Assembly (NCBI GenBank): GCA_030651765.1
Contig: JAUSBY010000011.1
Location: forward strand, 124,001 to 188,000
Direction of reading: 5' to 3'
Source: Coriobacteriia bacterium
Lineage (GTDB): Bacteria; Actinomycetota; Coriobacteriia; Anaerosomatales; Anaerosomataceae
Length of the DNA: 64,000 bases
The notes beneath the pieces were generated by a model. The model did no database searches. It saw nothing but the letters and a program-made list of their open reading frames with translations, and was not told the origin of the DNA. Below, one piece after another: positions 39,835 through 46,078 of the stretch (positions are counted from its first letter, which is position 1; every line of letters starts with the position of its first letter). The position numbers and the translations under genes are program-made.

Positions 39835-39990
39835 AGTGACACCTCCGGTCGTGAGTGTGTTCATCCCCCGTTTGACGGGTGGTGCGGTCACAGGGTTCCG
39901 AACGCGGCCGGCTGAAGCGTCAGGGATGCATGGACACAGCGGTTGGTGAATAATCGGGCTACCCGCCACACATACCGAGAGGGAGTCACC

Positions 39991-41211
39991 ATGCCGCACG
40001 GGTACTACGAAGACGTCCGCATCACCGGACACCTTATCGACTCGGGCATCATGTCCCGGATCATGGACGATATCGTCGCGCTCGACGGCGGCTTCGAGAC
40101 GCTCTCGTTCGAGGTCGGCAGGACCAACGAGGATGCGTCATCGGCGCTGCTGCGCATCAGCGGGAGTGACGAGGGGCACCTCGATCACATCCTCGCGGTC
40201 ATCGGCCAGCACGGGGCCGAACCCGTCGATGCCTCCGACGCCCGCACCGTACCAGCGCCGGCAGACGGGGTGCTCCCAAAGGGCTTCTACGCGACCACGA
40301 ACCTGGAGACCGCCGTTCGCATCGGCGGCAGGTGGGTCCCCGTCGCCGGACCCGAGATGGACCTTGGTGTCGTCATCGACGACGGCGCGGCGCGTACCGT
40401 GACCATGGCCGATGTGCGCGCAGGACAGGAGATCGTGGTGGGACACCTCGGCCTCCGCGTCAAGCCGCTGGAGCGTCCGCGCGACAAGCAGGAGTTCGAG
40501 TTCATGAACTCGGAGGTATCCTCCGAGAAGCCGAAGGCGCTCGTGATCAGGGACGTGGCGCGCATGCTCGAGAAGATCCGCGAGCGCGGCCAGAGCATCA
40601 TCTTTGTGGTCGGACCGGCAGTCGTGCACACCGGCGCAGCGGAACACCTCGCTCGGCTGGTGCGTGCCGGCTACGTCTCGGTTCTGTTCGGAGGGAACGC
40701 CGTTGCGGTGCACGACATCGAGTCGGCGCTCTATGGCACGTCGCTCGGCGTCTCGATGGAGGCGGGTATGCCCACCGTAGGCGGGCACGAGCATCACCTG
40801 CGGGCCATCAACACGATCCGCGGATGCGGGGGCATTGCGCAGGCTGTCGAGCAGGGGGTGCTGACGCACGGTCTGATGCACACGCTCGTGACGGCCGACG
40901 TCCCGTACGTGCTCGCCGGCTCGATACGCGACGACGGACCGTTGCCCGACGTGATCACCGATGCGCTGCAGGCGCAGGCGGCGATGCGCGCGCACTGTCA
41001 AGCGGCCGGCGCGTGCATCATGCTCTCGACCATGCTGCACTCGATAGCCACCGGCAACATGCTGCCCGCCTCGGTCACCACGGTATGCGTCGATATCAAC
41101 CCCGCGGTCGTCACCAAATTGGCCGATCGCGGCAGCTTCCAGACGATCGGCATCGTGACCGACGTCGGGCTGTTCCTCGAGATGCTCGCCGACGAGCTGG
41201 AGCGCGGATGA
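39991..41211 (+). CDS. TIGR00300 family protein (LOR/SDH; ornithine cyclodeaminase type)
   Basis: A 406-residue protein from ATG 39991 (GAGAGGGAG). An N-terminal LOR/SDH domain (GYYEDVRITGHLIDSGIMSRIMDDI, YATTNLETAVRIGGRWVPV) precedes a Rossmann-like domain with VVGPAVVHTGAAEHLARL and LFGGNAVAVHDIESALYG. Archaeal members of this group convert ornithine to proline and ammonia with NAD. It is likely to act in arginine or ornithine breakdown. Its stop overlaps an ATG in frame with msrA. Confidence 0.85.
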   Translation: MPHGYYEDVRITGHLIDSGIMSRIMDDIVALDGGFETLSFEVGRTNEDASSALLRISGSDEGHLDHILAVIGQHGAEPVDASDARTVPAPADGVLPKGFYATTNLETAVRIGGRWVPVAGPEMDLGVVIDDGAARTVTMADVRAGQEIVVGHLGLRVKPLERPRDKQEFEFMNSEVSSEKPKALVIRDVARMLEKIRERGQSIIFVVGPAVVHTGAAEHLARLVRAGYVSVLFGGNAVAVHDIESALYGTSLGVSMEAGMPTVGGHEHHLRAINTIRGCGGIAQAVEQGVLTHGLMHTLVTADVPYVLAGSIRDDGPLPDVITDALQAQAAMRAHCQAAGACIMLSTMLHSIATGNMLPASVTTVCVDINPAVVTKLADRGSFQTIGIVTDVGLFLEMLADELERG

Positions 41212-41279
41212 AGCACGATGCCGAGAGGGGGAAGGCGGCACGCCGTGTGCTGTTCAAGCGCACGGCGAGAGGAGCTGAC

Positions 41280-41960
41280 ATGTCCGAACAGGCGGTCCAA
41301 TGCCCCCGGCTTGATACCGTCGACCACGGCGTGCTCGAGCGGGCGACGTTCGCACTCGGTTGATTCTGGGGACCCGATGCCCGGTTCGGGCAGATGGCAG
41401 GAGTCGTCCACACCCGTGTCGGCTACGCGGGCGGCACGACCCCCGACCCCACATATCGCGCGATCGGGGATCATACAGAGTCGCTCCAGGTCGACTTCGA
41501 TCCCGCGATCGTCACGTACGAGGACCTGCTCGCCGTCTTCTGGTCGGCCCATCGGCCCGCCGCCTCGGCGCACTCGCGGCAGTACGCATCCATGATCCTT
41601 CCAATAACCGACGAGCAGGAGGCGGCAGCGCGTGCCTCGTGCGCGACCGTCACCGGACTGCTCGGCGCGGTGACGACCGATATCGTCGCCGGTGCGCGCT
41701 TCTACGTTGCCGAGGACTATCACCAGAAGTACCGCCTGCGGTGCGATCGTGTCCTCGCGGCCGAGTTCGCGCGGATGTATCCCGATGCTGCGGGGTTTCG
41801 CGAGAGTACTGCGGCCGCCCGGGTGAACGGGTATCGTGACGGGTACGGGACGCGCCCCGAGTTCGATGCCGAGATCGGCATGCTCGGGCTGAGCGAGGCG
41901 GCGCAGGGGCGTCTCCGGTCGTTCGTGCCGGCGGGTCGGAGTCGCGGGGAGGTCGGCTGA
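41280..41960 (+). CDS. msrA: Peptide methionine sulfoxide reductase MsrA, selenoprotein
   Basis: A 226-residue protein if the TGA at 41361-41363 is read as selenocysteine (residue 28). The frame is continuous before and after it: ATFALG-U-FWGPDARFGQMAGVVHTRVGYAGG. Sec stands exactly where MsrA has its catalytic Cys in GCFWG. Downstream, HTESLQVDFDP and AEDYHQKYRLR are typical MsrA. A hairpin follows the UGA (see 41361-41396). ATG 41280 has AGGAG; an in-frame ATG 41208 overlapping the previous stop is an alternative. It makes MetO(S) reduction coupled with the adjacent msrB. Confidence 0.9.
41361..41396 (+). promoter_or_regulatory. UGA codon and bacterial SECIS-like hairpin in msrA
   Basis: TGCCCG (41378-41383) pairs with CGGGCA (41387-41392) closing on GTT. 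The apical GG-U begins about 20 bases after the UGA, within the usual bSECIS distance and loop-start pattern. The hairpin is inside coding sequence, as in bacterial selenoprotein genes. Confidence 0.7.
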
Positions 41961-41961
41961 C

Positions 41962-42366
41962 GTGAAGCGCTACGAGATCAAGCGGACCGACGCCGAGTGG
42001 CGGGAGCTTCTCGCGCCCGAGCAGTACCGGGTGTTGCGCGAGGCGGGGACCGAGCGTCCAGGCACCGGCATCTACCTCGACACGACCGACGAGGGCCTGT
42101 ATCGATGCGGCGCGTCTGGGAATCCGCTCTTCCGCTCGGGGGCCAAGTACCATTCGGGTTGTGGCTGGCCGAGCTTCTACGAGCCCGTCGCTTCGGACGC
42201 GGTGGAGGAACTCACCGATACGAGTCACGGAATGTCGCGCACCGAGATCCGCTGCGGTACGTGTGGGTCGCACCTCGGCCACGTCTTCGAGGACGGCCCG
42301 GCTCCCACTGGCCAACGCTACTGCATGAATTCGGCGGCACTCAACTTCGAGTCCACTGACGGATAG
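41962..42366 (+). CDS. msrB: Peptide methionine sulfoxide reductase MsrB
   Basis: A 134-residue protein from GTG 41962, one base after the msrA stop. SGCGWPSFYEP and RYCMNSAALNF (catalytic C121) are the MsrB signatures. The structural zinc site is altered: C49 is followed by S52 where the family has a second Cys, while C98 and C101 remain. Together with msrA it repairs both MetO epimers. Confidence 0.94.
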   Translation: MKRYEIKRTDAEWRELLAPEQYRVLREAGTERPGTGIYLDTTDEGLYRCGASGNPLFRSGAKYHSGCGWPSFYEPVASDAVEELTDTSHGMSRTEIRCGTCGSHLGHVFEDGPAPTGQRYCMNSAALNFESTDG

Positions 42367-44162: not shown

Positions 44163-45236
44163 TTGAGCGGGTCAGCGGGACTGGTCTCAGTCGGCATGAA
44201 CGAACGCGTCGCCGCGCTCGTAGCCGGGCACACTGAGAGCTGGAAGCCCGGGCGAGTCGTCCGCTCGGACCGGGGCTTCGTCTTCGTGATGACCGACGAC
44301 GGCGTGATGCTCGCGCGTCCGGCCACGAGGTTGCTCAAGGCGGCCGACGACGGCGGGCTTCCCGTGGTGGGCGACTGGGTGCTCATCGGCGGCGACGAGG
44401 CCGAGCCGCTCGTCGAGGTCGTTCTCGAGCGCACGACCTCGATCGTTCGCCGCGATCCCGGCAAGGCGGCACGCCTGCAGGTACTCGCGGCCAACGTCGA
44501 CCTTGTCCTCGTGACGCACCCCATCGCCGAGCCGCCCAACCTGTCTCGACTGGAGCGTGAACTCGCGCTCGTATGGGATAGCGGTGCGCGGCCGGTTCTC
44601 GTGCTGACCAAAGCGGACCTGAGCGGTGACGTCGAGGGCGCCATCGCCGCGGTCGGCGAGATCGCGCCGGGAGTCCCGGTACACGTCACGAGCGTGGTGA
44701 GCGGTCTCGGCCTGGACGAGTTGCGAGGGTACCTCGAGCACGACGAGACGCTTGCGCTCATCGGGCCGTCCGGGTCCGGCAAGTCTACGCTCGTCAACGC
44801 GCTGGCGGGGGAGGATCTGCAGCTCACCCGGGAGGTCCGGGTCTCGGACGGGCGCGGACGTCACACGACAGTGAGCCGCGAGCTCATTCCGCTTCCGGAC
44901 GGCGGTCTGATCATAGACACACCCGGGCTGCGTGCCGTGGGGATGTGGGACTCTGCCGATGGCATCGACCAGGCGTTCTCGGACATAGCCGAGTTGGCCT
45001 CAGCATGTCGCTTCCGCGACTGCACGCACTCGGGCGAGCCAGGCTGCGCGGTCGAGGCGGCAGTGGCACGTGGCGAACTGCCCGAGCGCCGCCTCGAGAG
45101 CTACCGCGAACTGCAGGCTGAGGTGCAGTTCGTGACCGAGCAGCTTGACGTGCGAGCCCGACAGGCACGCAAGCGCGAGGACAAGTTGCTCGGCCGGACG
45201 ATCAAGCGCTACTACCGCGACGGCGGCCGCAGGTAA
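44163..45236 (+). CDS. rsgA: Ribosome small subunit-dependent GTPase RsgA
   Basis: A 357-residue protein from TTG 44163, chosen because GAAGGAG is 5 bases upstream; an ATG at 44196 is possible. OB-fold (KPGRVVRSDRGFVFVMTDDG), then the permuted GTPase: TKADLS (G4), GPSGSGKSTLVNAL (G1, about 201-214), DTPGL (G3). The C-terminal zinc finger is CRFRDCTHSGEPGCAVEAAV. It helps mature the 30S subunit. Confidence 0.94.
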   Translation: MSGSAGLVSVGMNERVAALVAGHTESWKPGRVVRSDRGFVFVMTDDGVMLARPATRLLKAADDGGLPVVGDWVLIGGDEAEPLVEVVLERTTSIVRRDPGKAARLQVLAANVDLVLVTHPIAEPPNLSRLERELALVWDSGARPVLVLTKADLSGDVEGAIAAVGEIAPGVPVHVTSVVSGLGLDELRGYLEHDETLALIGPSGSGKSTLVNALAGEDLQLTREVRVSDGRGRHTTVSRELIPLPDGGLIIDTPGLRAVGMWDSADGIDQAFSDIAELASACRFRDCTHSGEPGCAVEAAVARGELPERRLESYRELQAEVQFVTEQLDVRARQARKREDKLLGRTIKRYYRDGGRR

Positions 45237-45241
45237 CGGCT

Positions 45242-46078
45242 CTAGCGCACCCGGTAGACGTCTCGTGCGACGAGGGCAGCGAGCGCGAACAACAGGTTCG
45301 CGGACATCCACCCCATCTCGAGCAGGGTGCTCGATCCGGCGCCGGACCAGTCCGCGTACGAGTAGAGCGAGTCGACCACCGAGAACACGAGCGCACCAAC
45401 CACGACTATCCACCATGGCCACGCGAGTCTTCCGGCGCCAAGCCGCATGATGACGATCGCAAGGGTCATTGCCGGGGCGAGCATGAAGAACACGTCACCG
45501 AGCGGGTAGAGCGTGCTGATGACCAGCCCCCAGGTGCCCAGCTCTTCGACTCCGGCCGCAAAGATGTAGGGCTTGAGCAGCAGGAAGTACATAGCTGCAG
45601 CAGCCACGACGGAGATGACAGCGCCGATGATCAAAGGCGTGCGCAGGTCGGTGATCGACCGGTAGGACCGGACGGCCAGCACCATCGCGATGAAGAAGAA
45701 GGCGTACTCGAGGGTGTAGAAGACATCCGCGACACTCGGGTACGGGTCGAGTCCGAGGTGCAGGTCGAGAATCGTCCACGCGATGTCTCCGACTGCGTAC
45801 GCAGTCACGCCCAGACCCACGAATAGCCACTGCTTGCCGACGTGCTGCCCCCACCCGATGCGCAGGGCCACGAAGATGATCACCAGGGCGAACAGGATCT
45901 GCAGCGATGTGCCGAACCAGTAGGACGCCGCGTATGCCGCGTCCGAAAGGGCCCCGGCATACATCTGCACGCTCAGGAGGGCGAACAGGCTGACAAGCGC
46001 GATGAGGGCACCGCCGGTAAGTATCGTTCCGGCCGAGAGCGCACGTGGGGTCCGGGAGCGAGCGGTGGTCGCGGTCAT
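45242..46078 (-). CDS. Eight-to-nine-helix membrane protein, sensor-like
   Basis: A 278-residue protein almost entirely of membrane helices. The block AVGDIAWTILDLHLGLDPYPSVADVFYTLEYAFFF, with charged residues inside helices, resembles the N-terminal sensory membrane region seen in some GGDEF and PAS proteins, but no output domain follows. The ATG overlaps the stop of a small gene upstream (TGATG), so the two are coupled. Function unknown. Confidence 0.72.
   Translation of the reverse strand: MTATTARSRTPRALSAGTILTGGALIALVSLFALLSVQMYAGALSDAAYAASYWFGTSLQILFALVIIFVALRIGWGQHVGKQWLFVGLGVTAYAVGDIAWTILDLHLGLDPYPSVADVFYTLEYAFFFIAMVLAVRSYRSITDLRTPLIIGAVISVVAAAAMYFLLLKPYIFAAGVEELGTWGLVISTLYPLGDVFFMLAPAMTLAIVIMRLGAGRLAWPWWIVVVGALVFSVVDSLYSYADWSGAGSSTLLEMGWMSANLLFALAALVARDVYRVR

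Follow-up and report, generated by a model that had tools for sequence, protein, structure and literature searches.

A 64,000-nucleotide stretch of Coriobacteriia DNA, here called the window, almost certainly encodes a selenoprotein methionine sulfoxide reductase A (MsrA) of the 1-Sec, helical-domain type, in which selenocysteine (Sec) 28 would be inserted through SelB and a stem-loop. At the level of sequence this reading draws on the position of the TGA codon, the decoding machinery, the constraint on the SECIS element, the protein family and the predicted fold, and from these we infer Sec insertion, MsrA activity and the way in which the enzyme is reset.

An in-frame TGA codon at the catalytic position of MsrA

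The msrA gene occupies positions 41280–41960 of the forward strand, from an ATG at 41280, preceded by an AGGAG ribosome-binding site (41270–41274) recognized in the sequence, to a TGA stop at 41958–41960, and encodes 226 residues. It was identified by its match to the catalytic domain PF01625 (119 bits), by orthologues across the order and by alignment. Its upstream neighbour (39943–41211) matches TIGR00300, a nickel-pincer-nucleotide ornithine cyclodeaminase, with 520 bits. As the initial annotation had noticed, a TGA at 41361–41363 falls on the codon of the catalytic Cys (GUFWG), within the context A-L-G-U-F-W-G-P, and the frame is intact on both sides and open onward to the stop. The alignment with MsrA proteins that had been proposed as a check bore this out, as Cys homologues align exactly and their catalytic Cys is the residue homologous to Sec28. 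Across alignments of 19 and 26 sequences, position 28 was the only one at which Cys or Sec was conserved; the non-conserved Cys of the window MsrA, in the regions of residues 8, 121 and 155, may have a genus-specific role. Downstream of the TGA the gene appears to be under purifying selection, with 20 synonymous vs. 13 amino-acid changes relative to the sister species and with 27 of the 43 base changes at third positions.

Mechanical ORF calling yields a frame of 188 amino acids at this locus, as would be expected if the TGA were a true stop that left either a pseudogene or a protein initiated at the internal ATG 41394. Such a fragment would, however, miss the catalytic residue together with the first strand, while in 42 genomes as well as in other phyla the protein sequence is kept before and after the TGA with no other break, and aligns exactly with Cys homologues, which makes termination at this codon highly improbable. 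A truncated MsrA without the catalytic residue is thus what standard gene calling produces.

The Sec form is conserved across the order

A class-wide search of 248 Coriobacteriia genomes returned 44 close relatives of the Sec-MsrA, all from the order to which the window belongs. In 43 of them, all but G065, where it was not resolved, the catalytic codon could be read: 42 have TGA and one has TGT. Since only a single base separates TGA from a Cys codon, a sequencing or assembly error could have concealed a genuine TGC or TGT at 41361, the finding that the initial annotation had named as decisive against Sec. The codon is instead TGA at the same place in 42 species-level genomes that were assembled independently, so that neither chance nor a base error accounts for it, and SECIS-like constraint is found in the TGA genes only (see below); we therefore consider an error vanishingly improbable.

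The sole Cys (TGT) form in the order belongs to a 99% complete genome (G022), in which selA was not found and no tRNA-Sec signal rose above the serine-tRNA background. Neither selA nor tRNA-Sec was seen in two near-complete genomes with a TGA msrA (G047 and G051), a lack likely due to missing contigs or assembly gaps. Outside the order, the sampled Coriobacteriia carried only ordinary Cys MsrA of low similarity.

Bacterial Sec-MsrA is known, and a recent review (2026) gives its motif as GUFWG/H (PMC13188914). The initial annotation had placed it in a limited set of organisms, which understates its range, as Sec forms occur in records of Coriobacteriia and of five other phyla (Bacillota, Desulfobacterota, Planctomycetota, Nitrospirota and Chloroflexota). 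Helical-type MsrA with TGA was also observed in the Bacillaceae Alkalihalobacillus deserti and Sutcliffiella horikoshii (L095, L097), and helical-type MsrA with Cys in haloarchaea (L084, L087, L092, L096, L100). No MsrA relative was found in the viral collection searched. Hits with two TGAs were considered as double-Sec proteins and set aside, because in the translations viewed the second TGA ends the frame. The Sec-MsrA family is already known, and what is added here is its conservation across nearly a whole order, next to msrB. A full-text literature search joining Coriobacteriia with selenoprotein terms returned a single, unrelated paper, a weak hint that the order-wide occurrence of Sec-MsrA may be unreported so far.

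The genome carries selenocysteine machinery

The initial annotation had predicted SelA, SelB, SelC and SelD elsewhere in the genome and would have abandoned Sec in their absence. Searching the window genome (2.26 Mb, 97% complete) revealed selA, selB, selD and a tRNA-Sec with a UCA anticodon, all on contig C8. An in-frame TGA is also present in selD (L052, about 44524–45594), where it falls within S-K-A-G-U-A-A-K and makes selD a selenoprotein gene too; a hairpin was observed after this TGA. In the sister species (G075), Sec-msrA, selA and tRNA-Sec lie together on a single 1.17-Mb contig, which removes the doubt that binning might otherwise raise. Contig C13 of the window genome (L051, 12178–12654) carries a further tRNA-Sec and the final part of a selB. 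They are 84–91% like the C8 copies, with neighbouring matches at 70–74%, and on these values a second tRNA-Sec and selB of the same organism was discounted; C13 most likely comes from a related organism and was wrongly binned with the window genome.

An open frame through a TGA leaves the identity of the inserted residue unspecified, and the codon might be read as another residue, e.g. Trp, or by general read-through. Yet TGA is not reassigned, because msrA itself stops at TGA; the genome has tRNA-Sec, SelA, SelB and SelD, and Cys homologues have their catalytic Cys at this position, so that decoding as anything other than Sec is exceedingly improbable. Cumulatively, conservation, the TGA of the relatives and the Sec machinery led us to reject a true stop, a sequencing error and insertion of another residue in favour of Sec at position 28.

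A conserved hairpin follows the TGA codon

Directly downstream of the TGA, at 41378–41392 on the forward strand, lies a hairpin of six pairs with a GUU loop at 41384–41386 (+24 to +26, the T of TGA being +1). The initial annotation had pointed to such a compact hairpin, and it is now backed by the invariance of the loop, by covariation, by codon choice and by its absence from Cys homologues. G24-U25-U26 is invariant in 46 sequences, and 89% of the cells in the hairpin columns are paired across the family. Doubly changed cells numbered 29, vs. 9.3 in shuffles, with 0 of 500 shuffles as high, although relatedness inflates these covariation counts; the paired changes include G-C to A-U at 23-27 and G-C to U-A at 19-31, and the signal drops once the partner is slid. 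Given this inflation, the comparison with Cys genes provides the stronger control: across 47 TGA genes, the sequence downstream of the TGA is more stably folded than its synonymous shuffles (mean z −1.80), whereas 12 Cys homologues have no such excess (mean z −0.16; p = 4.5e-6 for the difference). Furthermore, each of the 37 Arg codons that occupy the loop position has GG as its last two bases, as compared with 31% of the other Arg codons of the same genes, pointing to a forced choice of CGG. Taken singly, the window gene does not differ significantly from its synonymous shuffles in the folding of the hairpin (z −1.1, p 0.19), and the support for a SECIS thus comes from the family. As a whole, these data support the hairpin being a bacterial SECIS. 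The E. coli fdhF SECIS likewise has G-U in its apical loop. Similar to bacterial SECIS elements in general (PMC9312934), the putative window element is a stem-loop that lies within the coding sequence and closely follows the UGA, and it differs from them in a very short, three-base GUU loop, found in most members.

A 1-Sec enzyme with a C-terminal helical domain

Residues 174–206 (41799–41897, forward strand) match PF20939 (MsrA_helical, 'Selenoprotein methionine sulfoxide reductase A, helical domain') with 23.8 bits, barely above the cut-off of 23.7. The predicted model of the MsrA (mean pLDDT 94) contains helices at 151–213 and superimposes on 4LWJ over 198 columns, helical domain included, with a TM-score of 0.88 by target length and 40% identity. 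The best solved relatives are the Sec-MsrA structures of Clostridium oremlandii (CoMsrA; 4LWJ, 4U66; PMC4333827, PMC4479559). With no Cys conserved beyond position 28 that could act as a resolving residue, and judging from the predicted structure, the window MsrA is of the 1-Cys (here 1-Sec), helical-domain kind known from that organism. It has in common with CoMsrA the GUFWG Sec site, the lack of a resolving Cys and, in the model, the C-terminal helical domain, but comes from a different phylum and has an msrB one base downstream. CoMsrA with Sec has 20 times the activity of its Cys version (PMC4333827); Sec insertion and reduction by glutaredoxin are likewise established for that enzyme (PMC4333827, PMC4479559).

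Ordinary Cys MsrA (E. coli, bovine; PF01625) has the same catalytic domain and a GCFWG motif that the window MsrA matches, from which the latter departs by Sec in place of Cys, the helical domain and the missing resolving Cys. The tree, built from the catalytic domain only with the catalytic residue masked and therefore having few columns and many weak forks, places the helical group apart from ordinary MsrA with 99% support and requires at least eight changes between Sec and Cys. Most Sec-MsrA of the order retain the helical domain and have no second conserved Cys. Two genera of the window's own family, g3 and g5, account for eight Sec-MsrA that lack the domain (L147–L154) and group in a single clade (support 100), the tree label 'helical' on L153 being an artefact of sequence read beyond the stop. 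In seven of these eight, a Cys is found towards the C-terminus, close to where the resolving Cys of ordinary MsrA lies. It is conceivable, and we put it forward tentatively, that helical domain and resolving Cys are exchangeable within the order.

A neighbouring msrB

One base past the msrA stop, a GTG at 41962 starts a Cys-type msrB (41962–42366, forward strand; PF01641, 169 bits; TIGR00357, 184 bits). This spacing, the Cys type and a Ser at residue 52 (TCT, 42115–42117), a zinc-site Cys position, were described correctly in the initial annotation. Ser52 is not a feature of the system, as the sister species has Cys (TGC) and so does every other MsrB of the order whose motif was matched; it is a private change of the window genome. 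By motif matching at 30 loci of the order, msrB lies just downstream of msrA in 25 and upstream in one; it is downstream at L043 and L044 as well. Around the Sec-MsrA genes of other phyla, the search for the msrB motif gave no match.

At L043 (G129:C21, reverse strand), the msrB downstream of a Sec-msrA has TGA at the codon of the catalytic Cys (RH-TGA-INS), and its product is possibly a bacterial Sec-MsrB beside a Sec-MsrA. Neither selA nor tRNA-Sec was found in G129, a single MAG, and the hairpin of this msrB does not exceed what synonymous codon choice yields (0.53 of random versions). Cys occupies this position in the other MsrBs of the order that were viewed, and no Sec-MsrB turned up when 396 genomes of the phylum were scanned by pattern, in a draw that did not include G129 and so had no positive control.

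Proposed mechanism and implications

We propose that SelB, aided by the stem-loop, delivers Sec-tRNA-Sec to the UGA, and that Sec28 would then reduce methionine-S-sulfoxide, while the R isomer would be handled by the neighbouring MsrB. Since no other Cys is conserved, resetting would fall to an outside thiol or to a dimer: probably a thiol such as glutaredoxin, or perhaps a Sec-Sec dimer, both having been reported for the C. oremlandii enzyme (PMC4479559). A title cited in PMC13188914 reports a selenoprotein glutaredoxin from C. oremlandii, whereas the single glutaredoxin found in the window genome is of the CPYC type without Sec. On contig C1 (L146, 1495–2414), the gene of the latter is overlapped by one with a Rieske-like C-terminus, named by motif only. 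The Cys pattern of the overlapping gene is presumably that of a ferredoxin-thioredoxin reductase. That this glutaredoxin serves MsrA is our guess.

In this order of Coriobacteriia, methionine repair seems as a rule to depend on selenium, and in the window genome (G000) the class-wide search detected no MsrA besides the Sec form. Sec, Cys, helical-domain and domain-less versions occur side by side within one order, so that the roles of Sec and of the extra domain can be tested there. If helical domain and resolving Cys are indeed exchangeable, the order would offer a natural experiment on the resetting of a Sec enzyme.
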